DNA of 64,000 nucleotides from Bacteroidia bacterium (GTDB lineage: Bacteria; Bacteroidota; Bacteroidia; NS11-12g; UBA955): positions 58,048 to 122,047 of the forward strand of contig JAMNXP010000005.1 in assembly GCA_023653095.1 (NCBI GenBank), given 5' to 3'. The first letter of the stretch is position 1. Every line of letters begins with the position of its first letter. The notes under the pieces were generated by a model. The model saw nothing but the letters and a program-made list of their open reading frames with translations, had not been told where the DNA came from and searched no databases. The translations under genes were made by a program, and so were the position numbers. Shown piece by piece: positions 5,037-55,362 of the stretch.

Positions 5037-5065
5037 TTTAAAATTACACACATTTTAATTTTATA

Positions 5066-5093
5066 AAAAGCCCCGAATTCGGGGCTTTTCTTT
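5066..5093 (+). terminator. Rho-independent terminator
   Basis: AAAAGCCCCGAATTCGGGGCTTTT is a perfect GC-rich hairpin followed by a T-rich run. It ends the leucine dehydrogenase transcript, directly before the next promoter. Confidence 0.9.
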
Positions 5094-5101
5094 TATTTTC
5101 G
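5094..5101 (+). promoter_or_regulatory. Putative -7 promoter element
   Basis: TATTTTCG is one base from TAnnTTTG, only 4 nt before the ATG at 5106. It lies right after the terminator, so transcription of the next gene would be leaderless or nearly so. Confidence 0.45.
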
Positions 5102-5105
5102 CCTT

Positions 5106-8287: not shown

Positions 8288-8328
8288 AGAACTGCAAAAA
8301 TCGGCATTTTTTTATGATGTTTTATAAC

Positions 8329-8336
8329 TATCTTTG
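8329..8336 (+). promoter_or_regulatory. -7 promoter element TAnnTTTG
   Basis: TATCTTTG is an exact match, 7 nt before the ATG at 8344. It lies in the short divergent region shared with recJ. Confidence 0.6.
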
Positions 8337-8343
8337 AATTAAT

Positions 8344-9429
8344 ATGAAAAAACACTCCATGCTTTGGCTGTTGTTTGGTTTGGTGAGCGTCGCAAAAGGC
8401 CAAATCACCATCTCAAAATCCTCCATGCCAGTCGCTGGAGATACCATTCGTTTTTCTACGGCCTTGGCAACAGATTTACCTGTTGGGTGGTTGAAAAAAG
8501 GAGCTAGTCAATCTTGGGACTTTTCTAAACTAGAGGCTCAAACTTCAGAGTTAAGACAATATCAGAGCGCAGCGAAAACCCCTTATGCTTTCTATTTCTT
8601 AGGGCAAACGGGTTTGAAAACAGCTGATACCATTGGTGGAGGTCCCATTACATTTACCAATGTCTACTCGTTTTATACTGCGTCAAATTCTGTATTTAAA
8701 GCAGAAGGATTGGGTTATTCATACACGGGTATTCCTTTGGCGAGCATGTATGAAGACGAAGATGAAATTTACCAATTTCCATTGCAGTACAACGACTCAG
8801 ATGTAAGTACTTACAAATTTACGTTTGCCATTCCGGGTCAACAACTGTTCAGTTTCAAACAAGCAGGTAAAAGAACCAATGTGGTTGATGCCTGGGGTAG
8901 TATCAAAACGCCTTATAAAGAATATACCGATGTTATACGGGTGAGAACATTTGTAGATGGAACAGATACCATAGAAACTCAATTTTTCAAACAGGGTCTC
9001 CCCCGCAAACAAATCATCTATCAATGGCTTGCAACTTCGGAAAAGATTCCTGTGATGGAAGTTTCTGGTCAGTTGAGTCCAACCAATCAGTTTGTGCCAA
9101 ACCAAGTGAGATTCAGAGATAAATATAACGGATTAAGTAGCGGTGGTGGATTTAATCCCTTGGGAGTTGAAGAATATACTTCAAAAACAATGGCGGTTCA
9201 TCCCAATCCGTCATCTGATAAAATTACTATTTCTTGTTTGGTGCCTACTTTTGTACCTTTTGTCGCTCCAGAGGAACTTTCAGTGTTTAACAGCATTGGA
9301 CAATCATTCATCTTGAAGAGATTGCCCATGACCGAAGAAAATTACAACTCGTATTCCATAGAAAATTTGCCTTCTGGACTTTACTGGATGCAAATTTGGG
9401 GTGGTGCGTTGCGATTTATAAAAGATTAA
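8344..9429 (+). CDS. Secreted protein with type IX secretion sorting domain
   Basis: This 361-residue exported protein has a signal peptide at residues 1-19 (ending VAKGQ) and a central domain I do not recognise, rich in Thr and aromatic residues. The C-terminal tail of about 80 residues has the form of a type A T9SS sorting domain: VHPNPSSDKITI, a middle strand around SVFNSIGQSF, then LPSGLYWMQI. The cargo would pass the outer membrane through the PorSS/T9SS machinery and be surface-bound or released. It sits 7 bp upstream of the transhydrogenase genes but has no evident functional link to them. Confidence 0.8.
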   Translation: MKKHSMLWLLFGLVSVAKGQITISKSSMPVAGDTIRFSTALATDLPVGWLKKGASQSWDFSKLEAQTSELRQYQSAAKTPYAFYFLGQTGLKTADTIGGGPITFTNVYSFYTASNSVFKAEGLGYSYTGIPLASMYEDEDEIYQFPLQYNDSDVSTYKFTFAIPGQQLFSFKQAGKRTNVVDAWGSIKTPYKEYTDVIRVRTFVDGTDTIETQFFKQGLPRKQIIYQWLATSEKIPVMEVSGQLSPTNQFVPNQVRFRDKYNGLSSGGGFNPLGVEEYTSKTMAVHPNPSSDKITISCLVPTFVPFVAPEELSVFNSIGQSFILKRLPMTEENYNSYSIENLPSGLYWMQIWGGALRFIKD

Positions 9430-9436
9430 TTTTTCA

Positions 9437-10519
9437 ATGATAATAGCAGTTTTTAAAGAAAAAAGAGTTGCCGAAAACAGAGTGTCAATGACACCTACAG
9501 TAGCGGCAAACTTATTAAAAATGGGTTTTGAGGTATGGGTTGAAAACGGTGCAGGTGCGTCTGCCCACTTTACCGATGAATCTTACATCTCAGTGGGTGC
9601 AAGTATCAAACCATTTAACGAACTTAAGTCGGCCGATGTGTACATTCAAATCAATGTACCAACCACCGAGATTTTAAATGAACTCCCAGACAATAAAATC
9701 TGGATTTCTAATGTATACCACCTCTCCAATACAAATTTGGTAGAACAGTTGAAGGCCAAAAAATGGTCTGTTTTCTCATTGGATGCCATTCCCCGAATTT
9801 CTCGGGCTCAATCTATGGACGTACTTTCTTCTCAAGCCAATTTAGCTGGTTACAGAGCTGTGATTGAAGGTGCCTACCATTTGGACAAGATTTTTCCTTT
9901 ATTGATGACAGCCGCTGGAACAGTAACACCAGCAAAAGTGTTGATTTTTGGTGTGGGTGTAGCGGGTTTACAAGCCATAGCCACTGCCAAGAGATTGGGA
10001 GCTGTCGTTGAGGCTACGGATGTCCGTCCCGAAACCAAAGAACAAGTTCAATCTTTGGGAGGAAAATTCATTGAAGTTAAAGGCGTTGAAGTAGGAAGTG
10101 AAGGCGGCTACGCAAAAGAAGCATCCGATGAATACAGAAAAGCTCAGCGCGAGGCTGTTAACAAATCATTGGCTCAAGCAGATTTGGTTATTACAACGGC
10201 CCTAGTCCCCGGTAAAAAAGCCCCAATTCTTATAGATGACGAGCAATTGGCTCTCATGAAAAACGGCAGTATCATTGTAGATATGGCTTCAGAACAGGGC
10301 GGAAACTGCGCTCAAACTAAGGCAAACGAAATTTACGTTCACAATGGTGTGAAAATCATTGGTTCCGTGAATTTGCCATCTAGCTTAAGTTCAAATGCTT
10401 CTGAACTTTTCGCTCGAAACATCTGGGAATTACTCAAACTAGTGGGACCTAAAGGAAATATAGAATTTAACCTTGAAGATGAAATTGTTCAAGGATGTTT
10501 AATCGCTCATCAATCTTAA
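9437..10519 (+). CDS. pntAA: NAD(P) transhydrogenase subunit alpha, part 1 (NAD-binding domain I)
   Basis: This 360-residue soluble domain I of the proton-translocating transhydrogenase passes hydride from NADH to NADP. It begins with IIAVFKEKRVAENRVSMTP and shows the alanine-dehydrogenase-like fold. The conserved RISRAQSMDVLSSQAN stretch and the dinucleotide motif FGVGVAGLQA follow. Splitting alpha into PntAA and PntAB is common in Bacteroidota and alphaproteobacteria. The three pnt genes follow with gaps of 4 and 3 bp, so they form one operon making a complete enzyme. Confidence 0.95.
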   Translation: MIIAVFKEKRVAENRVSMTPTVAANLLKMGFEVWVENGAGASAHFTDESYISVGASIKPFNELKSADVYIQINVPTTEILNELPDNKIWISNVYHLSNTNLVEQLKAKKWSVFSLDAIPRISRAQSMDVLSSQANLAGYRAVIEGAYHLDKIFPLLMTAAGTVTPAKVLIFGVGVAGLQAIATAKRLGAVVEATDVRPETKEQVQSLGGKFIEVKGVEVGSEGGYAKEASDEYRKAQREAVNKSLAQADLVITTALVPGKKAPILIDDEQLALMKNGSIIVDMASEQGGNCAQTKANEIYVHNGVKIIGSVNLPSSLSSNASELFARNIWELLKLVGPKGNIEFNLEDEIVQGCLIAHQS

Positions 10520-38509: not shown

Positions 38510-38825
38510 TAATCGGTTTTCGGTGGTCGGTTTTCGGTGGTCGGTTTTCGGTGATCGGTGATCAGCCGACAGACGATTAGTGTAGAGTGTAGAGTGTAGA
38601 GTGTAGAGTGTAGAGGCAGCGGTCAGCTTCGCTTGGCGGTCAGCTCTCAGCGGTCAGCGGTCAGCCGCGGCTTTGCCGCCAGCAGCTCTCAGCCTACAGC
38701 CTTCAGCGGTGGTTCTGACGCCAAGCAGCACCAAAGGTGCCAAGCAGCGCGAAGCGCAAGTCCTAGCGAAGCGCCAGTCATAAAGTCTCCGGCGCAGCCG
38801 TCAACTCTCAATCCTAAACTCTAAG
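38510..38825. repeat. Composite short-repeat tract between typA and a DUF1016 remnant
   Basis: This gene-free stretch of about 350 bp holds GGTCGGTTTTC repeats, five tandem TGTAGAG units (38581-38615), degenerate GCGGTCA heptamers, and the 45-bp unit ccaagcagcgcgaagcgcaagtc shared in reverse with 14.8 kb. It ends in caactctcaatcctaaactct, whose complement encodes the tail of the next ORF. Confidence 0.85.
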
Positions 38826-39672
38826 GTAGCAGCAATCACTCTATTTCTTGCCCGTTTCAATATCAAATATTTCGTGTAGTTTTTGTTGTAAAATTTTCTT
38901 GTCAGGTAGTTTTGTTTTAATTCAGAAACCATTGTTGAAGAAAGGCTTCTACTCATAGCATATTCTACAACTTCACTATCTTTATCCTTGCACAATAGAA
39001 CTCCAATGCTAGGATTTTCATTTGGCTTTTTAAGGTTTCTGTCTAATGCTTCCAAGTAAAAGTTAATCTGACCCAAGTGTTCGGCTTTAAACTTGTCTGC
39101 TTTAAGTTCGAAAGCTACCAAGCATTGAAGCCCACGATGGTAAAAAAGCAGGTCAATATAAAAGTTGCTATTGCCAACTTGTAACTTGTATTCTTCTCTA
39201 AAAAATAAGTAATATTTTCCAAGTTCGAGAATGAAATTTTTCATTTGGCTTACAAGTCCACGCTATAAGTCGGTTTCACTGTGGTGGTCCGGCAAGTTCA
39301 AAAATTCAAACACATAGCTGTCTTTGAAGGTGTTAGAATTGTTTTTATTTCTTTCTCTGCTTGTTTGGTGTAGAAGCTGATTTTAAGTTCGTTTTCGGAA
39401 CGTAAAATTTCAAAATAATGACTCCAACTCAATACGTTAGACAGCGACTCACTTTTTGGGAAAGCCAGGTAAAGTTTTCTCATGTAAAGCAAGTTAGACC
39501 TACTAAATCCCTTCCCATATAATCGTGTAAGGTCCTTTGAAAGCTTCTCAAAAAGGAAACTTCCATATTCTGCCTTTTCCTTGCCTCCTTGCTCAAATTC
39601 AACGATGTTTCTGCCGATTAGCCAATAAGTCTGAACTAAAATAGTATTTACAGATTTAGCAACACGCTGTAA
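38801..39672 (-). pseudogene. Broken DUF1016 (YhcG-type) PDDEXK nuclease gene
   Basis: Two track ORFs are pieces of one DUF1016 gene. The N-terminal piece is open from 39672 and reads VNTILVQTYWLIGRNIVEFE and FSRSNLLYMRKLYLAFP. It then runs through SENELKISFYTKQAEKE, where most of the middle (the NWSVRELKRQ-type region) is missing and the frame shifts. In another frame YVFEFLNLPDHHSETDL can be read, followed by an in-frame stop. The C-terminal nuclease piece resumes at FILELGKYYLFFREE, with FYIDLLFYHRGLQCLVAFELK. The first residues of the family are also missing. The last residues (LEFRIES) come from a short-repeat sequence. The gene is decayed. Confidence 0.85.
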
Positions 39673-39687
39673 CTACCTGGTGAGGCT

Positions 39688-40044
39688 TCACGACTGACGT
39701 TCGACTTCTAAAACCCTTAAAATGTCAGCATAATTCTGAGGCAAATGTTTGGTTGCAATGTCCCAAAGAATTTCATAGTCAATTCCAAAGTACTCGTGTG
39801 ATATTCTATTTCTTAATCTGTACATTTCTTCCCACGGAATATTCGAATATTTATCTTTTAACTGCCGAGGCAAATTTTTACTCGCTTCACCAATAATTTC
39901 GAAATTTCGGATTACTGCATCAACAGTCTTATAGTCCCACTTGAAATGTTGAAAGTCTAGTCCCTCAATGTATTCCTGAACTCTTGCCATAGACAATTGC
40001 ATGTCTTCCAAATAAAGAATTGGATCTCTTTCGCTCGGTTTCAA
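39688..40044 (-). CDS. HEPN-domain protein, HepT-like (DUF86) toxin
   Basis: This 118-residue HEPN protein keeps the RNase-type motif Rx4-6H as RNRISHEYFG near residue 80, together with MARVQEYIEG and IRNFEIIGEASKNLP, typical of HepT. In studied pairs HepT is a toxin neutralised when the MntA nucleotidyltransferase adds AMP near this motif. It starts four bases inside the end of the MntA-like gene at 40041-40331, so the pair is translationally coupled and looks intact. Confidence 0.88.
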   Translation of the reverse strand: MKPSERDPILYLEDMQLSMARVQEYIEGLDFQHFKWDYKTVDAVIRNFEIIGEASKNLPRQLKDKYSNIPWEEMYRLRNRISHEYFGIDYEILWDIATKHLPQNYADILRVLEVERQS

Positions 40045-43736: not shown

Positions 43737-44225
43737 TTAAAATATCCTGAACTCAGGAATAGAATGTGAATTGAAGAAATCACTCTGAATTGTACTTAAA
43801 TAAGTTGGGCTGATAATGTCGTCTTCTAGATATTCTTCAAAATCAGGATGAACATTCATAATCAAGTCATTGCTTATTTTCAACTTGCTCTTGATTACTT
43901 TGAAAAACTTTATTTCACTGTATTCAATTTTATCATCTGCCTTGATGGTATCAATAGCAGTTTCGATGATTTTAAGTTCCTCTGCTTCAGAGAGGTCAGC
44001 ATTGGTTAAGTCTTGGAAATACATCTTCAAAAATCCATGACCTTCGTTATTGATCGAAACAACCATTGTTGTTAATTCTTCATTTAGATTGATGTCGCCA
44101 AAAATTTGCTTTTCGGAGTGCATTTTTCTGATCATTTCAATTTCTTTATTGTCAATTTCACCGTCACACGCCATGCAGGAAAATGCAGTTTTTAGTAGTA
44201 ATTGATTAAAACTTTCTTGTTCCAT
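43737..44225 (-). CDS. TerB-like protein
   Basis: This is a 162-residue soluble, acidic helical protein. Residues 8-36 (LLKTAFSCMACDGEIDNKEIEMIRKMH) resemble the first half of TerB (tellurite resistance B) domains, with the conserved acidic DGEID. A second, related half lies at about 85-120 (IIETAIDTIKADDKIEYSEIKFFKVI). TerB domains are proposed metal-binding adaptors in stress and conflict systems and are often found near kinases. It starts 12 bp after the kinase-AAA gene, consistent with a shared complex (inference). Confidence 0.7.
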   Translation of the reverse strand: MEQESFNQLLLKTAFSCMACDGEIDNKEIEMIRKMHSEKQIFGDINLNEELTTMVVSINNEGHGFLKMYFQDLTNADLSEAEELKIIETAIDTIKADDKIEYSEIKFFKVIKSKLKISNDLIMNVHPDFEEYLEDDIISPTYLSTIQSDFFNSHSIPEFRIF

Positions 44226-44237
44226 AATTTTAATATT

Positions 44238-46004
44238 TTAAAATCCGATTTTATTAGGTTTGTTGGTATTGTCGTTGTTTCCGTCAAAATGAGATTGTAT
44301 ATCGGTATACCGTTTTAACTCGCTTCTTGAAAGTGAGGGTTTTTTCATTTCAATAGATTTATGAATCATTTCTGATGTAATTCTTGACTTTGCTTTTAAG
44401 GCCATTCTAGAAGCTTCATCGCACAAGAACTTGATATCGCTTGAAACATAATATTCAGTTGCATGTGCAAAGGATTGATAATTCATTCCAATTTCAATTG
44501 GTCGATCTTTTAGGTATAATTTGAACATCAATTCGCGAGCTTCCAAATCCGGAGGTGGGAGATAAATGTGTTTGTCTAATCTCCCTGCTCTTAAAATCGC
44601 TGGATCAATTGCGTTAGGTCTATTTGTTGCGCCAATTACGAAAACACCTTCGGCTCCAATGTTATTCATTTGGGCTAAAAACTCGTTCACAGCGCTTGTA
44701 TTCATGTGGTTAACTCCAGAATCATCCCGGTTTGGCACCAGTGCGTCTAATTCATCAATGAAAACGATACTTGGGGCATTTTTTCGGGCTTGATCAAAAA
44801 GATTTTTGATGTTTTCTTGGGACGCATTTACCCATTTACTTTGGATGTCTGAAGGTTTAATTTGGAAAAAGTCAAATCCAATTTCTTCAGCCAACTTTTC
44901 AGCAAAAAAGGTTTTACCACAACCTGGAGGGCCATAAAGTAACATGCCATTTGGGATTGTAAGACCGTACTCTCTGTATCTGTCTTTTTCGGTCAATGCG
45001 TCAATTACATCGAGTTTTAGAGTGTCCTTCAAATCTTGCATTCCAGCAATTGATTTAAATCCATCTCCCTTTTTTGTAATATTATTGGGAGTTTTTGTAT
45101 TTGTATCCTCAGAAATAATAGAATTTTCAAATTGAAACTCCCCGTTTAATGCCTTTATGAATTCATTGGTGCTTTGAAATCGACTTTCTGGTTGAAGGTG
45201 TAATGCTTTAGAAATTATTTCTATGGTTTCTGGGCTGATTTTATTATTGCTTTGTAATACTTTAAGGGGTTTTCTGCGTTCAGATAAAATTTGGTCTTCA
45301 ATTAATAGCGCGTCTGATTTATAATTTGATATCTCAAAAAACCAGGGAGTAATTCCAAACAATAAATGATAATAAAGTGCTCCCACAGAGAAAATATCAC
45401 CTTGAATTGAAAATACTAGATTGAATTTTTCACCAGCGGTATAAAAAGGATTTAATCCTATTTTATTGAAGTCTTTATTTGGTTGGCTTTGAAAACGGGC
45501 ATAACCAAAATCTATGATTTTTGGAACTGGAATTTTATTGGAAAGGTCCAACATGACATTCAAATTTGTAATGTCATTATGAATGATTGGATCGGCCTGA
45601 TTATGAAGGTAATTTAAACCATTGAGTACGCCAGATATGATGTCTTTTGCTTCATATGGATTTAAATTTTGTTCTCTTTTCATTTTATCTGAAAGAGTTT
45701 CACCACTAATGAAATCTAAAATTGCAAAGGCAAATTTTTGATTGTCAATTACCACATCTCCACTGTCGTGAAATTTAACAATGTTCGGATGATTTAATTT
45801 CTTTAGGATTTCAATTTCCACAATTTCTGCATTTGCATTAAATTGAGTTCTATGTAGTCTAGAGTAAAAAAACAGTTTTAGCAGTTTGATGTTATTGTTG
45901 CTATCTTTAACTCGATATGTTTCTGCGTAGCTTCCTCTTTTTAAGAAGAAGACAACGGTATATTTACCATTAATTGTCTGGCCTTGGGATAAAACGGAAT
46001 TCAC
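44238..46004 (-). CDS. Protein kinase fused to a p97/Vps4-like AAA+ ATPase
   Basis: This single 588-residue protein has two enzymatic domains. Residues 14-290 are a Ser/Thr-kinase fold: glycine loop LKRGSYAETY, possible lysine KLLKLFF, catalytic loop IHNDITNLNVML (HND replaces HRD but the Asp and Asn are kept), DFG as KIIDFGYARF, and the conserved GDIFSVGALYYHLL helix. After a 25-residue linker, residues 318-560 are an AAA+ module: Walker A GPPGCGKTFF, pore-loop SKWVNAS, Walker B IVFIDELDAL, sensor/arginine-finger stretch GATNRPNAIDPAILRAGRLDK. Kinase activity could gate an unfoldase or remodelling hexamer. No membrane segment is seen. The combination is unusual. Confidence 0.88.
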   Translation of the reverse strand: MNSVLSQGQTINGKYTVVFFLKRGSYAETYRVKDSNNNIKLLKLFFYSRLHRTQFNANAEIVEIEILKKLNHPNIVKFHDSGDVVIDNQKFAFAILDFISGETLSDKMKREQNLNPYEAKDIISGVLNGLNYLHNQADPIIHNDITNLNVMLDLSNKIPVPKIIDFGYARFQSQPNKDFNKIGLNPFYTAGEKFNLVFSIQGDIFSVGALYYHLLFGITPWFFEISNYKSDALLIEDQILSERRKPLKVLQSNNKISPETIEIISKALHLQPESRFQSTNEFIKALNGEFQFENSIISEDTNTKTPNNITKKGDGFKSIAGMQDLKDTLKLDVIDALTEKDRYREYGLTIPNGMLLYGPPGCGKTFFAEKLAEEIGFDFFQIKPSDIQSKWVNASQENIKNLFDQARKNAPSIVFIDELDALVPNRDDSGVNHMNTSAVNEFLAQMNNIGAEGVFVIGATNRPNAIDPAILRAGRLDKHIYLPPPDLEARELMFKLYLKDRPIEIGMNYQSFAHATEYYVSSDIKFLCDEASRMALKAKSRITSEMIHKSIEMKKPSLSRSELKRYTDIQSHFDGNNDNTNKPNKIGF

Positions 46005-46018
46005 GATATTTTTTAATA

Positions 46019-47539
46019 TTAATGGTTAACGGTATTTTGGGCTACAATTAATTCAATTTCTTTTAGGGTATTGTGAAGATTTATTTGATTATTATTGGTG
46101 CTTATTTCATCATACAGTAGCTGAAAAAAAGTAGAGGTTATTATGTTTTCTTGTGCGAGTTGAAATATTAATTCTTCTATTTGAAATTGCTCTAAAGTTT
46201 GATTGTTCCGAATTGAATCTGAAATGCCAAGACTTTCTATAACAACGGATAATTTCTGCGGATCAATAATATGGCAACAAGTATTTTCAGCTTTTGTTGT
46301 AATCTGTCTACTTTCGTCTATATCTTCAATAGTCTTATTGTTAAGCCAGTTATAAAAGGATGTTCTATTTGTGTTTTGTTGCAATTGATGATTTAAATTT
46401 TCTGTTTCTGAAGTCCAATGTATTTTTGATGCATAAACAGCAGCACCTTCTGCAACTGCGGTGATTGGATCTAAGCTTGTATCAGGGGTGCAAATTTGTT
46501 TAGAGAGCATTTTTCTCAAAATAGGTGATATTGTAGGGCCACCTACAAGAATTAGGGATGATATAGACTTCTCATCCAGTCCATTTCGCTTTAATAGTGT
46601 TAACGAGATATCAATCGCTCTTTGAATTAAGGGCGCAATGACTAATTCTAAATCTTCACGATTAACAGAAATTTCCAATTCGAATTCACTGCCGTTGTCA
46701 TCTTCCCAGGGTATGTTACCTAAATTGGAGAGTATGGTAGTTGCTTCATTGAATGAAAGTTGTTCTTGAATTTCCTGAGCATAAAATTTCATTTCGTTCC
46801 GGATTTTTTTATTTTTTTCCGGATCCTCAAGCAGTTCGTCAACGGCATATTTCCGCTTCAAGTATGGAATTATGATATTATCTATTATTGCTTCAACAAG
46901 GGATTTATTTCCTAAATATTGATTACCCTCTGTATCTATAACTTTAATGCCTTCGTTATTTGTACTCAATAGAGTAGCGTCGAAAGTTCCCTCACAAAAA
47001 TGAAAAATCAGGTCAATTCCCACTTTTTCTTCTGACTTTGAATAATATAGATGACCTACTGCTTCGGCTTCTGAAATTATCTCACAATCATCAAAACCAG
47101 CCAATTTTGCGGCTTCTCGAGTATGTTCTATTTGGCTTTTTCCAAATTTGAATGGAACTGTAATCACTGCTGCAATTATAGTTTCATCTTTTTCGAATGA
47201 TTTAAGGGTCTTCAAGACCTCTGCCGATAATTCAATTGAGTTGAAAGATCGATTGGCATTTGAACTACAATATTTAAGATCAGACCCCATGGTTCGTGTG
47301 AATTCTATGAATGAATTGTCATTTTCAGTATTCCAATCTTTCATCGCACTCAATTTTTCTAGCTTATGAGCAGAGAAAGCCCCATCGCCGACATGCATTG
47401 CACCTTTTCGATTTATAAAAACCACCGTTGGCGTAAATGGTCTCAATGTGTTACTCCTTATTATCTGGGTAATACCGTTTTGAAATTTCACAATACTGGA
47501 ATTATATATTCCTAGATGAATTCCATAACTTGAGACCAT
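46019..47539 (-). CDS. Degenerate Hsp70 paralogue (pseudo-ATPase) without substrate-binding domain
   Basis: These 506 residues are clearly homologous to the ATPase domain of the Hsp70 at 48.2 kb, but the catalytic signatures are altered. Phosphate-1 DLGTTNS is HLGIYNS, the catalytic Lys position (FKRTMG) is FTRTMG, EPEAA is EAEAV, and phosphate-2 FDFGGGTFD is FHFCEGTFD. The adenosine motif LVGGPTISPILRK is intact. ATP hydrolysis is unlikely. In place of a substrate-binding domain there are about 130 residues, including a helical end (FQIEELIFQLAQENIITSTFFQLLYDEI) that looks like a small protein-interaction domain. It may regulate or scaffold the active Hsp70. Confidence 0.85.
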   Translation of the reverse strand: MVSSYGIHLGIYNSSIVKFQNGITQIIRSNTLRPFTPTVVFINRKGAMHVGDGAFSAHKLEKLSAMKDWNTENDNSFIEFTRTMGSDLKYCSSNANRSFNSIELSAEVLKTLKSFEKDETIIAAVITVPFKFGKSQIEHTREAAKLAGFDDCEIISEAEAVGHLYYSKSEEKVGIDLIFHFCEGTFDATLLSTNNEGIKVIDTEGNQYLGNKSLVEAIIDNIIIPYLKRKYAVDELLEDPEKNKKIRNEMKFYAQEIQEQLSFNEATTILSNLGNIPWEDDNGSEFELEISVNREDLELVIAPLIQRAIDISLTLLKRNGLDEKSISSLILVGGPTISPILRKMLSKQICTPDTSLDPITAVAEGAAVYASKIHWTSETENLNHQLQQNTNRTSFYNWLNNKTIEDIDESRQITTKAENTCCHIIDPQKLSVVIESLGISDSIRNNQTLEQFQIEELIFQLAQENIITSTFFQLLYDEISTNNNQINLHNTLKEIELIVAQNTVNH

Positions 47540-47583: not shown

Positions 47584-48234
47584 TTACAATGCTTCATCTG
47601 GGTCACTTGGTAAGGTCTGGAAATTGCCGTTTGTTTGCAACTTTAGCTCGTAAGTTAGAGTTGAGTTTTGCAGTAATTGGGGTTCATCTTTACCAAATGC
47701 TTCATCAGTGATAAAGCCACCCTTGAGCTTGCCACCCTTCATTTCTTTGTTCGGATTCCACCCTTTGCCATAATAGAAAAACGCTTGGTAAGTTCCATCA
47801 GGAAAAGAAAAGGTATATTGGTCGCCTGAACTAATGTAGGCATGTCTGAATACCCTGCCATTTTTCTTGATTGTTACAACTACATCCGAATTGCTTGTTT
47901 GTACCTTGATTTGAGAACAACCATATGAATTACAACTACTGTTCCCTCCATAATACTTGGCGTATGGTGTTCTTCCTGTTGGTAGGGTATTGTTGATGTA
48001 TTTTTCATATTCAAGCTGCTCAATCCTCTTTCGCTCTGCCTCCGCTTCTTGTTCAATACGGAGACGTTCCATTTCTTGAGCTTGTCTTTCTTGTTCTACT
48101 ATATCCAGCTGTTCAAGCCTAGTCGCTTCTTGTTCCTCTTCGTATAATCTAAGTTTTCTTTGAGCATCGCTTTCACATGATGTTAAAAACCCTACATTTA
48201 ATAATAGTAAAAGTGAGATTGTGTATCTTTTCAT
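47584..48234 (-). CDS. Lipoprotein with coiled coil and shared beta domain
   Basis: This 216-residue protein has a signal peptide with a lipobox-like FLTSC near residue 20. It then has a charged coiled coil (about 25-78, EEEQEATRLEQLDIVEQERQ onward), a Gly/Asn/Cys spacer (NSSCNSYGCS), and a beta domain with AYISSGDQYTFSFPDGTYQAFFYYG. That domain is also found in the SH3 protein at 42939-43724. It would be anchored in the inner or outer membrane facing the periplasm. It lies between the two Hsp70 genes (gaps of 11 and 44 bp). Confidence 0.68.
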   Translation of the reverse strand: MKRYTISLLLLLNVGFLTSCESDAQRKLRLYEEEQEATRLEQLDIVEQERQAQEMERLRIEQEAEAERKRIEQLEYEKYINNTLPTGRTPYAKYYGGNSSCNSYGCSQIKVQTSNSDVVVTIKKNGRVFRHAYISSGDQYTFSFPDGTYQAFFYYGKGWNPNKEMKGGKLKGGFITDEAFGKDEPQLLQNSTLTYELKLQTNGNFQTLPSDPDEAL

Positions 48235-48245
48235 AACTTTAATTA

Positions 48246-50804
48246 TTAACCTCTTAGAACTCCTATTGGAGGACCGCCAGGCCCTCCGTCTTTGGGGCCA
48301 TTTTCTCCATAGCCAGCATTATCAAAAATATCGTTGACAATCGGTTGAAGGTTATCAATTGTGGGTGAGTCATAAATGATATTTTTACCTTGGTCAACAG
48401 TTATTCTTGCTGATCTCCTGTCTTTCCAGTTGATCTCATTGAAATCTCTATCATGCCACAAAATAAACGCCATTAAATGTTCAATTCTCTCTAATTCAAA
48501 TGCAACAGAATTTATCATTTTGATTAGTTCTGGAGTATTCTTCTTATCCTGATCCTTGATTGCTTGTTCCACATTTGCTCTTATTTCATTGACCTTATGA
48601 GCAGTGTGTTCATTTCCTTTTTTCTTGTTAACATCTTCTAATTTATGAAATGCTGCCTTGAGCTCTTTTTCTAACTTAGGCCATTCGCTTTCTTCTTCAA
48701 TGCTATCTACAGATTTTAAAACTTTCCGCAAATTTTCCAAAGTCTGTTGTTGGTTATCTGGGGATATTTTGTCTCTTTCAAATTGGATTTTAATATTTTC
48801 TAATTCTACTTCTATCTTTTTAAATTCATCTTCATCTCCAATTGTTCCTTTGGATTTCAATTGTTTAATTGAATCTAATCCTTTGTCGATTTCCGATGTA
48901 AGTAAAGTAGCCATATCAGTCCCGGTTTTATCTGTATTTGTCTCGCATATGAAATAATGAGTATGGTCTAAATAGGGGAAAATGGCTTTGCCGTGGATCA
49001 CCTGATTTATATCAACTTTTAATTCTACATCAACATCACTATTTGCCGGCAATAGAGCAGGAAGATCATTTCCTGTAATATAAATTGTATTCACGTGATG
49101 ATTGTAAATAGCTCTGGACCTGTCAACATTATGTTCTCCTTGATATATGGCAATTTTCAAATAGTCAGAGGCCATTCCAGGGCGAATTTGTGAAGGTGTT
49201 TTCAAATTAGGCTTAACGCCAACAGCAGGCAACTGTTTTGATTTAGTAAGTCCTTCAACTACACGGAATTCTAGTTTTCCAGTATTTATGTCTTGAATCT
49301 CAATTCCGATATTGTATGGTAAGACAGCATTTCCTCCCTTACTACCTTGTATAATATTGAAGCTCGATGGTTCACATTCTAATTTGTTACCTGTGTCGTC
49401 AAATAGGGTGATTTCAAAATTATTTAATTTGCCAGAAATTAGCTGTACAGAAATGATTTCTCCCAATTCGTTTATGGAAACACTGCCACTGGACCAGCCA
49501 CCATCTTGACGACTAATATGAACAAATAATTTATCTGGTATTTTATTTTCGGTTTTTTCTTTCAGTATTTTAACGACAACATGCTCTTCCAATTCAACCG
49601 TTGCTGATTCATGGTTAATTTCCAATTGTATTTTTGTTGGGTTAAATACCGTGGTTTCTTGGTTCCGCTTAATGGTGGAGGCATAAATTGCGGCACCTTT
49701 TGCTACAGCAGTCATTGGATCAACGCTTGTATCTGGAGTGCAAATTTGTTGAGAAAGCATTTTTCTCAATATTGGTGACATCGTAGGGCCACCTACAAGA
49801 ATTAGAGAGGATAATGATTTACCATCCAAGCCATTTCGCTTTAATAGGGTTAACGAGATATCAATCGCTCTCTGGAATAAAGGCGCAATGGCAACTTCTA
49901 ATTCTTCACGGTTAACAGTTATTTCTAATTCGAATTCATTGCCGTTGTCATCCTCCCCTGGAATGTCGCCTAAATTGGTGAGTATGATAGTTACTTCGCT
50001 GAAAGAAAGTTGTTTTTTAATTTCCTCAGCATAGAACTTCATTGCGTTCCGAATGATTTTATTTTTGTTTGAATCTTTCAGGAGTTCATCAATGTCAAAA
50101 TTTTCCTGAAGATATGGAATTATAATACTGTCAACAATCGCTTCGTCAAGGTTTTTACCTCCTAGATAATTGTCTCCTTCCGTATCTATAACTTGTCTGA
50201 TTCCATCGGTTACTCTGAGTAGGGCAGAATCAAAAGTTCCCCCTCCAAAGTCAAAGACGAGCCAATAACCATCTTTTTTATCTCCATTGAAACCATAAAC
50301 CCATGCCGCTGCTTCTGGTTCTGTGATAATCTCTACTTGGTCAAAGCCAGCTAATTTACCCGCTTGTCGGGTATGCTCAATTTGATTGCTTTTGAATGCA
50401 GCAGGAACAGTAATAACAGCTGTGTTTATAGTTTCATCTTTCTCAAATGATTTAAGGGTCTTCAAGACCTCTGCCGATAACTCAATTGAGTTGAAAGATC
50501 GATTGGCATTTGAACTTTTATACTGAGCATCAGACCCCATGGTACGTTTGAATTCTATGTAAGAATTGTCATTTTCAGCATTCCAATCCTTCATCGCATT
50601 CAATTTTTCTGCCTTAAGTGCATTAAAAGCAGCGTCACCAACTTGCATTGCACCTTTTCTATTTACATACACACAAGAAGGCATTGTGTCTTTTAGTGTA
50701 TTGCTTCTTACACTTTCTGAGGTTCCGTTGTTGATTTTGGAAATGGCAGAATTGGTGGTGCCTAAGTCTATGCCAAAGTCAACGGTTGTTCTACTTTTTG
50801 TCAT
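48246..50804 (-). CDS. Hsp70-family chaperone with an insertion between ATPase and substrate domains
   Basis: This 852-residue Hsp70 is longer than DnaK (about 640). The ATPase domain (1-385) is complete: GIDLGTTNSAI, FKRTMG, TEPEAAAWVYG, FDFGGGTFD, LILVGGPTMSPILRKML. About 100 residues of beta-rich sequence (VHISRQDGGWSSGSVSINEL and onward) then lie where DnaK has its short linker. A SubBD-like part follows (PYNIGIEI, DYLKIAIYQGEHNVDRSRAIYNHH), then a long helical lid (about 620-810) and a Gly/Pro tail. It is likely the working ATPase of the cluster, served by the J-like and GrpE-like products upstream. It is not the housekeeping DnaK. Confidence 0.9.
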   Translation of the reverse strand: MTKSRTTVDFGIDLGTTNSAISKINNGTSESVRSNTLKDTMPSCVYVNRKGAMQVGDAAFNALKAEKLNAMKDWNAENDNSYIEFKRTMGSDAQYKSSNANRSFNSIELSAEVLKTLKSFEKDETINTAVITVPAAFKSNQIEHTRQAGKLAGFDQVEIITEPEAAAWVYGFNGDKKDGYWLVFDFGGGTFDSALLRVTDGIRQVIDTEGDNYLGGKNLDEAIVDSIIIPYLQENFDIDELLKDSNKNKIIRNAMKFYAEEIKKQLSFSEVTIILTNLGDIPGEDDNGNEFELEITVNREELEVAIAPLFQRAIDISLTLLKRNGLDGKSLSSLILVGGPTMSPILRKMLSQQICTPDTSVDPMTAVAKGAAIYASTIKRNQETTVFNPTKIQLEINHESATVELEEHVVVKILKEKTENKIPDKLFVHISRQDGGWSSGSVSINELGEIISVQLISGKLNNFEITLFDDTGNKLECEPSSFNIIQGSKGGNAVLPYNIGIEIQDINTGKLEFRVVEGLTKSKQLPAVGVKPNLKTPSQIRPGMASDYLKIAIYQGEHNVDRSRAIYNHHVNTIYITGNDLPALLPANSDVDVELKVDINQVIHGKAIFPYLDHTHYFICETNTDKTGTDMATLLTSEIDKGLDSIKQLKSKGTIGDEDEFKKIEVELENIKIQFERDKISPDNQQQTLENLRKVLKSVDSIEEESEWPKLEKELKAAFHKLEDVNKKKGNEHTAHKVNEIRANVEQAIKDQDKKNTPELIKMINSVAFELERIEHLMAFILWHDRDFNEINWKDRRSARITVDQGKNIIYDSPTIDNLQPIVNDIFDNAGYGENGPKDGGPGGPPIGVLRG

Positions 50805-50827: not shown

Positions 50828-51766
50828 TTATTCACCTATACTTACTTCAATTTGAGCAGATTGAATCATTTTCCCATTGAAATTTACTTGTGGTTTTATG
50901 ACACGTGTGATTATTCTTTTACCAACTTCAATTGAATCACTTGGGATAAAGTTTGCGGTAACATTCATGCCTTCGTTGTATTCTAATTCCAGCATTTCAA
51001 CAATTTCATAACCTTTGGCCAAATAATTTTCTTTAATGCTTTTTACGGCACTTTTGAGTTGCTTAAGGCCTTTGGTATTTGGATCCATTCGATAGTGATT
51101 GGTCTCCATAGCAGTTAGACGGTCAGCTATTTTTAGAACTAATGAATGGTCCTCAGTCGAACTTTCATTGCCTTTTTCTCGGATGAGCTCAATTTGTTGT
51201 TCGAGAATTTTAACCAATTGACCATCAAGTTTTAAACTTTCTTCCTCTAAGGCCGTTTTTGTTTTAAGGATTTGTGTTTCAATAGCAGATTTATTTGATT
51301 TGATTATTTTATTTATCTGGAGAAACATAAAGGATCCCAATAGCACAATCAATAAACTTCCTCCAACCCAATAAACACTATTTGTTTGGAGGTTATTGTC
51401 TATCTTATCAATTTGGTTTTTTGTGGCAGAAGTTGTTGTATCAATTTTTAATCCTAATTCTTTTGAAATAGTATTTAAATTTTGATTTATTAAAAGAGTT
51501 TTTTGAAGTAAACTATCATATTTTAGTTCACTATTAGTCAATTTTGATTCAACAGTCTTTAACTGTTTTTTTAACTTAGATATTTCAATTGAATGCTCTT
51601 TTAATGCGATTTTCTGCTGATCAAAGTCTATTTTTCCTTCAATCTTTAATGAACTAACCTTGGAAATGGCTTGGATTGACCTATTTGGATTTGCTGCTAG
51701 ACTGAAATTAAAAGTTGAAAAGGAAATCAACCATAAAATTAGTGATGGTATAAATGTGTTTTTCAT
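50828..51766 (-). CDS. Membrane-anchored coiled-coil protein with GrpE-like C-terminal domain
   Basis: This 312-residue protein has a signal peptide (1-24), a periplasmic coiled coil (about 45-128), one transmembrane helix (about 132-151, WVGGSLLIVLLGSFMFLQI) and a cytoplasmic part. The cytoplasmic part has a second coiled coil (155-200), a short helical region (205-250) and a beta-rich end. The end reads KGYEIVEMLELEYNEGMNV, then IITRVIKPQVNFNGKMIQSAQIEVSIGE. This parallels GrpE: long helix pair, helical bundle, beta wing. It lies 23 bp upstream of the Hsp70 gene, so I infer a membrane-tethered nucleotide exchange factor. Sequence similarity is weak, so this needs a profile search. Confidence 0.6.
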   Translation of the reverse strand: MKNTFIPSLILWLISFSTFNFSLAANPNRSIQAISKVSSLKIEGKIDFDQQKIALKEHSIEISKLKKQLKTVESKLTNSELKYDSLLQKTLLINQNLNTISKELGLKIDTTTSATKNQIDKIDNNLQTNSVYWVGGSLLIVLLGSFMFLQINKIIKSNKSAIETQILKTKTALEEESLKLDGQLVKILEQQIELIREKGNESSTEDHSLVLKIADRLTAMETNHYRMDPNTKGLKQLKSAVKSIKENYLAKGYEIVEMLELEYNEGMNVTANFIPSDSIEVGKRIITRVIKPQVNFNGKMIQSAQIEVSIGE

Positions 51767-51771
51767 GTTGT

Positions 51772-53280
51772 TTAATTTTTTAAGTTAATGTTTACCCAAA
51801 CTAATAGGCTGATAATAAGTATTGCAGCAGCCCAACCAGCGCCGAATGCGGCCCAAACAATCAATACTATAGCAATAAATACCAATAGTAACTGAAAGTA
51901 GAAAATTCTATCTTGTTCTTCTTTCTTTTTACGTTCTTCTTCTTTTTCTTTTCTCTTTAATTCTTCATCTTGTTTGCGTTTTTCCTCCGCAATTACAAAT
52001 GGATGCGTATTGGGCAAGTGGGCAACAAATTTGTTGATAATCACAAATATTTCTAGACTAGCACCGTTTTTTCGAATGTAATCAGCTAATTCGATGAAAT
52101 TAGTGATGTACTCACTTCTATCAGTAGATGCGATTTTTTGTAAAACAGAGTTCGTTATTTCTTTCCTCAAGAACTCATCTACTTTAAAAATATTTAATTG
52201 TTTGGTATAATCTCGGTTGGTATCAATAATGATTTCCTTTAGTCGTTTTAAAATTTCTAAAGCAAAAAGTATATCAGAATATTTTAGGTCATCTAACTCC
52301 TTGAGATTCGAATCAATACGTTCAATGGTTACCGATGTTTTTGCAATTTGTTTTGCAGATTTTAATAATTCGATCGATTTTTTAATGGATAAATCACTTT
52401 TATCTCCTTTTGAATATGAGTCTATTCCGCATTGAATAATTTCTTTGGCAACATTGTCAGAAATCATTCTGTACTGCAAGTTGTTTTGGCCTAAAAGATT
52501 ATGAATTAAGTTTAAACCTTCGCGAGATTTATTGAGTAAATCCTTGCCATATAAGTAACCATCTTTTGGACTGTTTTTGCGTTTTGATTTTGTGTCTTCA
52601 ATTAATAGTTGAATTTCATGTAATGGCCCTTCGGTAAATTTTTTATTTATGTATGTAATTACATTCTGAGAGGAGTTATTAAATAGGTTTGCAATTTGGA
52701 CGCGATCAAATCGAGGAAGTAAACCAATTAATATGTCATCTATGAATTTTTCAAGTTGTTGCTGATTTGTAAAAGTGTAGGTTTGGGCATCACCAACATT
52801 CTTTACGAAATCAATAAAATTTTCTGATTCAATTAACTTGATTTTGAATTCTAAACCTTCTTTTATTTCATCTATGGTATTACTTAATAATTTTAATGTG
52901 CCGATATTATTGAAATATGAGAAGTTTTTAGAACTAAGTTCTTTTCCAGACGTAACTTTTGTCCAAATTTCAATCGCTTTATTCTTGTCACCATTTTTCA
53001 AATAGTTCAGAGCGGTACCGTCAAAATTGTTAACCTCAATAAACCAGAATAACGAGTTATTTATTTTGTCTTGATTTATTTCGATTTTAGTTGAAGCTTG
53101 AACTACCGTTGATTCATTTAATTGAATGGGGGTTAAAAAACTAAAATTATAATGGGAGTCATAGGATCGCCCAATGCTCAAGTTTTTTATTATAAGACTT
53201 TTTCTATTTTGAATCTCCCTTTCTGAAGAATTGGCCAACAAGCCCAAGATTCTGTAAGGATTATTCTCTATTAACTCCAT
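51772..53280 (-). CDS. J-like N-terminal domain protein with C-terminal membrane helices, HPD absent
   Basis: This 502-residue protein begins ENNPYRILGLLANSSEREIQNRKSL, which resembles helix I and the turn of J-domains. The HPD tripeptide that activates Hsp70 ATPase is not present. A long helical middle follows, with repeated WxKV and coiled stretches. It then has a charged coiled coil (about 425-455, KRKQDEELKRKEKEEERKKK) and two hydrophobic segments at the end (LLLVFIAIVLIVWAAFGAGWAAAILIISLLVW). It precedes the GrpE-like gene by 5 bp. I infer a divergent Hsp70 co-factor held at the inner membrane. The J assignment is tentative. Confidence 0.6.
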   Translation of the reverse strand: MELIENNPYRILGLLANSSEREIQNRKSLIIKNLSIGRSYDSHYNFSFLTPIQLNESTVVQASTKIEINQDKINNSLFWFIEVNNFDGTALNYLKNGDKNKAIEIWTKVTSGKELSSKNFSYFNNIGTLKLLSNTIDEIKEGLEFKIKLIESENFIDFVKNVGDAQTYTFTNQQQLEKFIDDILIGLLPRFDRVQIANLFNNSSQNVITYINKKFTEGPLHEIQLLIEDTKSKRKNSPKDGYLYGKDLLNKSREGLNLIHNLLGQNNLQYRMISDNVAKEIIQCGIDSYSKGDKSDLSIKKSIELLKSAKQIAKTSVTIERIDSNLKELDDLKYSDILFALEILKRLKEIIIDTNRDYTKQLNIFKVDEFLRKEITNSVLQKIASTDRSEYITNFIELADYIRKNGASLEIFVIINKFVAHLPNTHPFVIAEEKRKQDEELKRKEKEEERKKKEEQDRIFYFQLLLVFIAIVLIVWAAFGAGWAAAILIISLLVWVNINLKN

Positions 53281-53372: not shown

Positions 53373-54383
53373 TTATTTTTGACTTTGGATGGATTGATCC
53401 AACTCCTTGGTCATGTTGTTAATCGTGTGAATTCGTGTGTAGATTTGATATTCTAAAAGTTTTTCTAAATCGGTTTTTTGACCGTAAACTTTAGTGAATA
53501 CCACCAATAATTCGAGACTCAGTAAAAAGATGAAAACAAGAATATAAACAATTAGTGCGATTCTAGAATCTCTTAAAATTCCAATCATAAGTGAGAGTTC
53601 ATCTAAAAATCCTCTATTTTCTTCCAATTCTTTTTTAATGTTTTCATACAGATTTATTTTTTCGTCTTCTATTTTGCTAATCATATTATTTAAAAGCACA
53701 ATCTGCTGGCTGATTCTTTTTTTATCTTCGAATGCCGGATTGGTAATTTGAGTTCGATTGGTTTGTGTGACAGGTAATAAATTCAAATCTATATTTAGCT
53801 GTTCCTTGTCAATATCTTTTGGAATTTGTTTGCGGGTTGTCGACTCTGATATCACATTAATCAAAGGATTTTTGTTTAATTCGTCGGTTAATACTTGCTC
53901 CTTGCTTTTTTGCTCTTGCAATTGAATTTCCAGCTCGTTTTTGCGATTTTCGAGCTGCTTAGATTGGGAGGTTGTTATTTTTGTGGCTTCTTCGCCAACA
54001 ATCATGGTTTTTCTTTTATCGAGGTCATCAGAGTAAATGATTTGGTCCAAAATAAGTGAACCAATAATTGACATGACAATAGCCAGAGTGACACGGAAGC
54101 CTACGACTGCTCTATTTGAACTATTCGCCAAAATGATTTGGCGCTCAATTTGGATGACTATAAATGCAAGAATACATGCAGTGGCGATACTCGCAAATGT
54201 GCTCACATCCAAGTATCTGTGTGCAAATGAAAAGCCTACTAAAAACCAAAGAATAGAAATGATGAACAAACCTGCCAAATACTGTTTTATCTTCCCTTTG
54301 GCGGCTTCACTGCAGGTATTCAATAATTGGTAATTGAATCCGGTCAAAAAACAACCGAATTTTAAAATTCTATTTTCAATCAT
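53373..54383 (-). CDS. DUF4407 family membrane protein
   Basis: This 336-residue integral membrane protein matches the DUF4407 pattern. Three to four N-terminal helices include IKQYLAGLFIISILWFLVGFSFAHRYLD and FRVTLAIVMSIIGSLILDQIIY. A long coiled-coil/helical region (about 135-265) follows, then a final helix (IALIVYILVFIFLLSLELLVVFTK) and a short cytoplasmic tail. Function is unknown. In this cluster it could be the receptor or pore through which the periplasmic proteins signal to the chaperones. This is inference. It starts 1 bp after the unknown gene at 54385. Confidence 0.82.
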   Translation of the reverse strand: MIENRILKFGCFLTGFNYQLLNTCSEAAKGKIKQYLAGLFIISILWFLVGFSFAHRYLDVSTFASIATACILAFIVIQIERQIILANSSNRAVVGFRVTLAIVMSIIGSLILDQIIYSDDLDKRKTMIVGEEATKITTSQSKQLENRKNELEIQLQEQKSKEQVLTDELNKNPLINVISESTTRKQIPKDIDKEQLNIDLNLLPVTQTNRTQITNPAFEDKKRISQQIVLLNNMISKIEDEKINLYENIKKELEENRGFLDELSLMIGILRDSRIALIVYILVFIFLLSLELLVVFTKVYGQKTDLEKLLEYQIYTRIHTINNMTKELDQSIQSQK

Positions 54384-54384
54384 T

Positions 54385-54978
54385 TTAGTTCAAGAATTTT
54401 GAAACTGAAATTGCATTTAATCCTCTCAAAAAACCTTTATTGTAGGAGAGTAGGATACGTTTTAGTGCACCTGATCCATTAGGTATTTCTGATTTGAACT
54501 TATTTAATTGATCAACATGGGTTTTGAGTTTTACCGTATGCTGTTTTAACTCTTCCACTAGATCTATGAGGCCCGCTTTTGACCTTGTATTGATGTGGAA
54601 TTCAATCTCATTTAATTTGTCGCTATATGTTAATAATAGTTGATCTACCTTAAGTTCAAAATCTATGGTTAAAAACTCTAAGTTGTCCTTACGATAACTA
54701 TCGTCAGGATTTGCAAGGGCATCATTGAATCCATTTTCTTCCCAATTATTTTGGAGGAATAAATACAAACCTTCAATGTCAATTATTTTATCGTTGATTG
54801 AATGTGTTTGTTTTTGATTAGAATTAGCAACGGTATCAAAATTTGTAATTTTAGGAGTCTCATTAAGTTCAGATTGGTTAGATTTCTCAATGAATAAATC
54901 CTCCGGAATATCATTATTAGATTGATTTTCGGTAGGGGCAGGTACTGTGGATTTGTTTAAAAAACTGAATATTGACAT
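54385..54978 (-). CDS. Hypothetical soluble protein
   Basis: I do not recognise this 197-residue protein. The first 75 residues are polar and Asn/Gln/Ser-rich, probably disordered. The rest is predicted helical, with YLFLQNNWEENGFNDAL and a stretch of heptad-like Leu/Lys (VDQLLLTYSDKLNEIEF, then LVEELKQHTVKLKTHVDQLNKF), suggesting a coiled-coil adaptor. It lies 1 bp from both neighbours, HNH and DUF4407, so it is translated with them. Confidence 0.65.
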   Translation of the reverse strand: MSIFSFLNKSTVPAPTENQSNNDIPEDLFIEKSNQSELNETPKITNFDTVANSNQKQTHSINDKIIDIEGLYLFLQNNWEENGFNDALANPDDSYRKDNLEFLTIDFELKVDQLLLTYSDKLNEIEFHINTRSKAGLIDLVEELKQHTVKLKTHVDQLNKFKSEIPNGSGALKRILLSYNKGFLRGLNAISVSKFLN

Positions 54979-54979
54979 G

Positions 54980-55333
54980 TTATTTTTTTATTATCGGAAC
55001 TTCGTACTTAGTGTGTCCTAACCCATGGCATTTTTTGCATAAGGTTACAAGTAAAGGGTTGCTGTATTCCCAAGGTTCAACGAATCTTCCAAGTTCTGAA
55101 TTGAAATGGTATTGCCTGTGATGAACTTGCAAGTCTTCGCCGGTTCCACAATTTCTACACTTGTTATTGTCTCGCTGAAGAATTTCTTGACGTTTGTTCT
55201 TCCATTCGATTTTGAACAGCGCTTCTTTGTAGCCACCGTGTTTTAAAGGTAAACTGACTGAGTATTGTGTATTGCTTTTAACCTCATTAATGCTGTTTTT
55301 TTGGCGATTTTTAAGTATATACCTTGATTTCAT
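54980..55333 (-). CDS. HNH endonuclease, first gene of the chaperone-kinase cluster
   Basis: Starting at MKSRYILKNRQKN (55333) gives 117 residues. The ORF-track start is a TTG five codons upstream. The HNH fold has two CxxC pairs (NKCRNCG and LCKKCHGLGH) around the core LQVHHRQY and NPLLVTLC. It is small enough to be a stand-alone nuclease or a zinc-finger-like adaptor. As first gene of the operon, next to the regulator, it could be the effector of a conflict system (inference). A consensus promoter lies 30 bp upstream. Confidence 0.8.
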   Translation of the reverse strand: MKSRYILKNRQKNSINEVKSNTQYSVSLPLKHGGYKEALFKIEWKNKRQEILQRDNNKCRNCGTGEDLQVHHRQYHFNSELGRFVEPWEYSNPLLVTLCKKCHGLGHTKYEVPIIKK

Positions 55334-55362
55334 TAGGCGTAAAAGCAATTATAGTCGAGCAC

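Follow-up and report, generated by a model that had tools for sequence, protein, structure and literature searches.

A degenerate Hsp70 paralog, probably a working pseudo-enzyme, encoded beside an active-type Hsp70 in an accessory operon of Bacteroidota

Results

The DNA analyzed here (termed the window; 64,000 nucleotides from a Bacteroidia bacterium) contains a run of minus-strand genes encoding, in order, a J-like membrane protein, a GrpE-like protein, an Hsp70, a lipoprotein-like protein, a second and degenerate Hsp70 (termed pseudo-Hsp70), a kinase-AAA protein and a TerB-like protein. The first of these (51772 to 53280) is a conserved protein with a J-like N terminus and a C-terminal transmembrane segment; no Pfam match to a J-domain and no HPD motif were detected in it, and its conserved NPYRxLG start recalls J-domains. 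The second (50828 to 51766) was identified from Pfam and a structure model as a membrane-anchored GrpE-like nucleotide exchange factor. Pfam GrpE matched 15 of 49 members of this protein family (best, 1.9e-5), and the 11 best PDB matches of a model of the C-terminal domain were all GrpE proteins (best E value, 1.3e-4). Inspection of the topology revealed a signal-like N terminus, a coiled coil, one transmembrane segment and the C-terminal GrpE fold; hence, this protein probably holds its GrpE part in the cytosol, tethered to the membrane. This possible transmembrane exchange factor was shared throughout the operon family. At loci L009 and L012, distant Hsp70s were adjoined by shorter GrpE-like ORFs that stand alone.

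The active-type Hsp70 (48246 to 50804; 852 amino acids) has a long C-terminal half and all of its nucleotide motifs intact. It is separated from pseudo-Hsp70 (46019 to 47539) by the lipoprotein-like gene (47584 to 48234; 216 amino acids), which is present in a subset of operons. The first-pass annotation had described the two Hsp70 genes as tandem paralogs; they do share an operon but are not immediately adjacent. Directly downstream of pseudo-Hsp70 is a gene for a Ser/Thr protein kinase fused to a CDC48/FtsH-type AAA ATPase (44238 to 46004), followed by the TerB-like gene (43737 to 44225), assigned from a weak Pfam match, its conserved position and the RefSeq name of a relative.

The source genome (2.04 Mb in 14 contigs, judged to be 74.8% complete) contains two stronger ordinary Hsp70 matches elsewhere, indicating that the Hsp70s of this operon are not the housekeeping DnaK. 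The accessory island around the operon also carries YhcG-type, HepT-like, Schlafen-AlbA_2 and DUF4143-AAA genes. At the edge of this island, a HepT-like ORF (39691 to 40044) lies beside a short piece of a YhcG PDDEXK nuclease (38804 to 39244) that matched only the C-terminal part of the longer PADLOC models. A cassette encoding a DUF4407 membrane protein, a 197-amino-acid protein and an HNH-like protein is present upstream of the operon (53373 to 55348), and the same trio was observed downstream of the related operon in L069. No CnuB/McrB-like GTPase or CnuC genes were found among the neighbors of the window operon.

The pseudo-Hsp70 reading frame is open from ATG to stop, as first annotated, and encodes 506 amino acids. 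A BLASTP alignment with the active-type protein contained 257 identities in 379 positions (68%) and 0 gaps. The nucleotide-binding domain (NBD) matched the Hsp70 superfamily model PF00012 with 127.9 bits (cutoff, 20.6), while the score with the DnaK equivalog model TIGR02350 was 131.4 bits, below the curated cutoff of 822.55, as was that of the active operon Hsp70 (215.4 bits). An AlphaFold2 model exhibited a confident Hsp70 NBD (residues 1 to 375), with a pLDDT mostly of >90 up to residue 370, and its best PDB match with Foldseek was DnaK (2v7y; E value, 9.8e-31); this model gives the fold, and nucleotide binding is not readable from it. The substrate-binding domain (SBD) is absent. Past residue ~375, it is replaced by a 131-amino-acid tail (residues 376 to 506; 46022 to 46414) unlike the active protein, which is predicted to be helical and was modeled with low to middling confidence (pLDDT of 28 to 71 beyond about residue 390). 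The tail is weakly similar to a pseudo-specific C-terminal extension of the second Hsp70 copies of Psychroflexus and Cryomorphaceae.

Four motif differences between the two proteins had been reported in the first-pass annotation (GIDLGTTNS to GIHLGIYNS, FKRTMG to FTRTMG, TEPEAAA to SEAEAVG and FDFGGGTFD to FHFCEGTFD), and all were letter-for-letter correct. Further motif losses were detected in GDN (to GNQ) and LGGK (to LGNK). The changes at ligand positions are D8H, T11I, T12Y, K81T, D180H, G182C, G183E and D206N; among these, D8H, K81T, D180H, G182C and G183E remove residues of a catalytically competent Hsp70. From established knowledge of Hsp70 motifs, we take K81 to be the catalytic lysine, D8 the phosphate-1 aspartate, and D180 with G182 to G184 the phosphate-2 residues. 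None of the 88 other family sequences varies at D8, T11, T12, K81, D180 or G182 to G184. Pseudo-Hsp70 had 24 changes at 80 sites that are nearly invariant, versus a mean of 1.5 in these relatives; the losses were not significantly concentrated on ligand positions relative to other conserved sites (Fisher p = 0.13 to 0.37). Residues that have been kept include the glutamate of the EP motif (E157), G184, and T185 and D187 of TFD, as well as the adenosine motif (G333, G334 and T336), LVGGPT and most of the connect-2 stretch. As judged from these residues, the ATP site has a destroyed phosphate/metal side but retains its adenosine side. The original statement that every key ATPase motif is altered goes too far, given the intact E157, TFD threonine and aspartate, LVGGPT and most of connect-2.

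An NBD profile was used to scan 84,980 species genomes, and the best 80 loci were taken for analysis. Nearly all of these loci had one Hsp70 with intact motifs. In ~62 operons for which both genes were present in the available DNA, the Hsp70 was followed by the kinase-AAA gene, generally with the GrpE-like gene upstream and often with the TerB-like gene downstream. Only 4 of these ~62 operons contained a degenerate copy, indicating that pseudo-Hsp70 is an accessory component. A second Hsp70 was present in four of the loci examined, namely, those of the Psychroflexus planctonicus isolate genome (L051) and of Cryomorphaceae (L044), Sphingobacteriales (L094) and Tannerella (L072) metagenome assemblies; the window is probably also from a metagenome assembly. 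The second copies of L051, L044 and L094 were degenerate and occupied the same operon slot as pseudo-Hsp70, with the P. planctonicus locus having the full operon in the same gene order, including the lipoprotein gene, and the L094 copy having lost part of its C terminus. Their motifs were AIYIGIDSA, EFTRTLG and FDFEHKTFS (L051); GIYIGTSSA, EFTRTLG and FDLGVGAFD (L044); and AIYLNSSFL, GFTKTLG and FDFGKEEFK (L094). Comparison of the degenerate copies, in line with a check suggested at first annotation, revealed that one change is shared and another is not: K81T is common to all four degenerate copies, but the D8 change is to histidine in the window and to tyrosine in the three others. The glutamate of the EP motif was retained in 4/4 copies. 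Genes for KilA-N domain proteins were observed between the pseudo-Hsp70 and kinase-AAA genes of L044 (5826 to 6707) and L094 (14035 to 14853). In L072, the Hsp70s are in tandem (4541 to 9843), and the second NBD is nearly intact, with only a GGG-to-GDG change. Nucleotide identity between these copies was ~0.97 in the NBD and mostly 0.44 to 0.7 at the C terminus, which looks like conversion of the whole NBD.

The operon was sporadic across Bacteroidota, with the Hsp70 family being detected in 6/396 genomes sampled from the phylum, 6/400 from the Psychroflexus family and 7/299 from the order of L094. A search of ~1,280 genomes for further pseudo copies yielded none beyond those already known. 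No relative was found in viral contigs, and phage records contained only ordinary DnaK-like matches (26 to 29% identity). The search of plasmids detected one related operon, lacking a pseudo copy, on the Haliscomenobacter plasmid pHALHY02 (J-like/GrpE-like/Hsp70/AAA/TerB; L140, 7348 to 19274). This operon adjoins the BREX genes brxL and pglZ, and a SIR2-family gene is located further upstream. Given this association with BREX and the accessory-island location of the window operon, a defense or stress role is likely, and the operon probably encodes a membrane-anchored Hsp70 machine with such a role. Hsp70 relatives from actinobacteria and Verrucomicrobiota/Kiritimatiellaeota (L113 to L122) were also detected, several with NPFR.LGL J-like proteins upstream and two with a kinase; these are possibly GAP1-N2-type or sister systems. 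Neither the operon nor a bacterial pseudo-Hsp70 of this kind was named in the open-access literature searched, an absence that is weak evidence.

The near identity of long stretches around the altered sites had been noted at first annotation. This identity is real but reflects gene conversion tracts rather than constraint around the dead sites. Nucleotide identity between the pseudo and active genes was patchy in all four genomes with a degenerate copy. In the window, it was 0.88 to 0.93 at amino acids 61 to 120 and 0.82 to 0.87 at amino acids 241 to 360 versus 0.54 to 0.68 elsewhere in the NBD. An unconverted segment, N1 (amino acids 5 to 60; 47360 to 47527; identity, 0.54 to 0.63), contains GIHLGIYNS and, hence, D8H, T11I and T12Y. 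Next are a conversion tract, T1 (amino acids 63 to 122; 47174 to 47353; identity, ~0.9; dS, 0.27), a second unconverted segment, N2, with SEAEAVG, FHFCEGTFD and GNQYLGN (amino acids 123 to 242; 46814 to 47173; dS, 1.8), and a second tract, T2 (amino acids 243 to 364; 46448 to 46813; identity, ~0.84; dS, 0.58). The tract dS values of 0.27 to 0.58 compare with ~1.8 or saturation outside the tracts, the tract borders being read from the same data as were used for dS. In the other genomes, tracts were located at amino acids 241 to 300 (L044), 271 to 450 (L051) and 331 to 390 (L094).

Clustering of synonymous identity was assessed utilizing only codons with the same amino acid in both copies and the lowest 40-codon window of synonymous change. 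Clustering was significant in 4/4 within-genome pseudo-active pairs (P = 0.0026, 0.0006, 0.012 and 0.0002) but in 0/7 between-genome control pairs (P = 0.16 to 0.97), which rules out constraint as the explanation for the near identity. Trees of the unconverted segments joined the window and L044 active genes (96/82), with the window pseudo copy outside, while trees of the tract segments joined the two window genes at 100/100. This conflict indicates that the near-identical stretches were copied in later and that the window pseudo copy appears to have arisen before the active genes of the window and L044 diverged. On this sequence evidence, the near-identical stretches are recent conversions from the active gene, while the phosphate-binding segments are unconverted and old. 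The tracts avoid the phosphate-1, glutamate, phosphate-2 and GDN motifs (P ~0.03 under random placement), a post hoc result that is only suggestive. The K81T codon (47297 to 47299), a single-base change from AAA to ACA, is inside T1 and would either have survived conversion as an island or have arisen again afterwards.

Changes inside the tracts were polarized with outgroups and pooled over the four genomes. Since conversion, the pseudo lineages have acquired 57 nonsynonymous and 51 synonymous changes (omega, ~0.37), significantly different from a neutral expectation of 75% nonsynonymous changes (p = 6e-7) calculated with a transition bias of 3 and the gene's own base composition. The active lineages have acquired 19 and 42 changes, respectively (omega, ~0.15; Fisher p = 0.0097 versus the pseudo lineages). 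At 0.1 substitutions per site, the neutral probability of a frame of this length containing no stop codon is <=0.006. The dN/dS comparison, also suggested at first annotation, indicates that the pseudo copies are under selection that is purifying but relaxed relative to that on the active gene. Pseudo-Hsp70 thus has the features of a pseudoenzyme, with the catalytic residues gone and the fold and frame kept under selection, and not those of a pseudogene, as the frame is open and nonsynonymous changes, pooled over four genomes, are below neutral. The initial proposal of a maintained loss of ATPase activity gained support from the same-slot degenerate copies of three other bacteria, all with the lysine-to-threonine change, from the 57:51 ratio and from the open frames; the loss looks maintained rather than being due to plain decay.

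A single origin of the pseudo copies was examined by tree comparison (p-AU = 0.092 for all four, 0.101 for three, and 0.046 for window plus L044). Holding the four copies together was not rejected, and the lysine-to-threonine change may be recurrent or inherited, convergence not being proven. When a profile of the L044/L051 extension was run against the loci examined, the window tail was the best nontraining ORF (E value, 8e-4; next, 1.4), and 1/20,000 shuffles scored nearly as high. This match favors shared descent of the window, L044 and L051 copies but is supportive only.

Discussion

We lean toward pseudo-Hsp70 being a functional, ATPase-dead Hsp70 paralog, a non-cycling component of a dedicated Hsp70 machine anchored in the membrane, where it would dock onto the active protein's partners. 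The proposed parts of this machine would be the J-like membrane protein, the membrane GrpE-like factor, the active Hsp70, the kinase-AAA protein, the TerB-like protein and pseudo-Hsp70 itself. As pseudo-Hsp70 would be unable to run an ATP cycle and the window copy has no peptide-binding domain, we infer a non-cycling subunit that would dock on the GrpE-like factor, the J-like protein or the active Hsp70, the choice of partner being a guess. Rather than folding clients, such a subunit might hold the machine or slow it down, loosely comparable to Ssz1 of the eukaryotic ribosome-associated complex. Docking surfaces common to both copies would be held in step with the active one by gene conversion, and selection would preserve the inactive state of the ATP site. 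A regulatory or scaffold role is plausible both by analogy and from the operon context, and the best inference is that pseudo-Hsp70 serves a membrane-anchored Hsp70 machine as a scaffold or competitor that does not cycle. The more specific proposal of a subunit of an uncharacterized machine acting in stress or phage defense, with surfaces kept by conversion and the ATP site kept dead by selection, is offered only tentatively.

Slow decay is unlikely. A duplicate that had lost its ATP site would be drifting and would resemble the active gene in part only through unselected conversion. The losses of the SBD in the window copy and of part of the C terminus in L094, the weaker selection than on the active copy, the rarity of the gene and the demonstration of conversion independently of function are all consistent with such drift. 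However, frames are open in four genomes (neutral probability as above), nonsynonymous changes since conversion are significantly below neutral, the lysine-to-threonine change is present in 4/4 copies, and conversion has not restored the phosphate motifs, although the latter observation is post hoc. It is distinctly unlikely that the NBD has instead been repurposed to bind another ligand (RNA, a peptide or another protein), as has been proposed for CnuD of the CoCoNuT restriction systems. Degenerate Hsp70s with very low predicted ATPase activity have been described in defense operons (PMC11090510), and this possibility would also fit the pHALHY02 operon beside BREX genes and the adjacent DNA-binding KilA-N proteins of L044 and L094. 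However, no nucleic-acid-binding domain was recognized in pseudo-Hsp70, no McrB/CnuC genes were seen in the operon and an intact Hsp70 is nearby.

A decoy role within a defense system, luring phage or stress factors directed at the active Hsp70, would be in keeping with the accessory-island setting and sporadic distribution, but the conversion tracts single out no one surface and we regard this reading as very unlikely. It is highly improbable that pseudo-Hsp70 serves the active Hsp70 as an exchange factor of the Hsp110 type. Hsp110/Sse1 is, from established knowledge, likewise an atypical Hsp70 serving a canonical one, and pseudo-Hsp70 is encoded with a canonical Hsp70 and retains an NBD that could allow NBD-NBD pairing. 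Hsp110, however, has an intact ATP site, needs bound ATP and has an extended SBD, while pseudo-Hsp70 has neither a phosphate site nor an SBD, and a GrpE-like factor is already encoded in the operon.

Among known systems, pseudo-Hsp70 shares with DnaK/Hsp70 the NBD fold and, with the intact-motif Hsp70 of its own operon, 68% identity, but the catalytic lysine, the phosphate-1 and phosphate-2 aspartates and two phosphate-2 glycines are replaced and the SBD is missing. The nearest functional parallel, by analogy, is Ssz1, which binds ATP without hydrolyzing it and has a J-protein and a canonical Hsp70 as its partners (PMC7083937). Both are atypical Hsp70s with a reduced substrate-binding part, and the window operon likewise encodes an active-type Hsp70 and a J-like protein; however, Ssz1 still has bound ATP and the beta part of the SBD, whereas the window copy has a destroyed phosphate site and no SBD after amino acid 375, is bacterial and has no known link to ribosomes. 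Among bacterial systems, CnuD of CoCoNuTs and a second gene, limited to the Hsp70 domain, in some GAP1-N2 systems come closest. The degenerate Hsp70 NBD of CnuD/CnuCD in type III CoCoNuTs is predicted to hydrolyze ATP poorly if at all and is likewise found in bacterial defense-type operons, but CnuD is fused or linked to McrB/McrC-type proteins, and the parts of that account drawn on here describe no intact Hsp70 paralog or GrpE beside it (PMC11090510). A subset of GAP1-N2 conflict systems combines an Hsp70 and GrpE neighborhood with a second gene that has an Hsp70 domain and no peptide-binding domain (PMC7159879). These differ in being from Actinobacteria/Firmicutes and in having GTPase/GAP1 partners rather than kinase-AAA and TerB-like partners, and loss of the ATP site is not described in the parts of that source drawn on here. 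The tests made do not place pseudo-Hsp70 in the Ssz1, CnuD or GAP1-N2 groups.

Pseudo-enzymes are well known among kinases. To our knowledge, Hsp70s that no longer run an ATP cycle have been described mainly in eukaryotes (Ssz1), with CoCoNuTs being a prediction. Given that such broken copies are found again in other bacteria and that selection still acts on them, pseudo-Hsp70 is probably a working pseudo-enzyme. The finding also points to a seldom-studied operon whose GrpE-like exchange factor is membrane bound. A bacterial pseudo-Hsp70 beside its active parent in several genomes is a natural experiment in which conversion continues while the phosphate-binding segments stay dead, and the P. 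planctonicus isolate, with its full operon, makes Hsp70 function without an ATP cycle directly testable.
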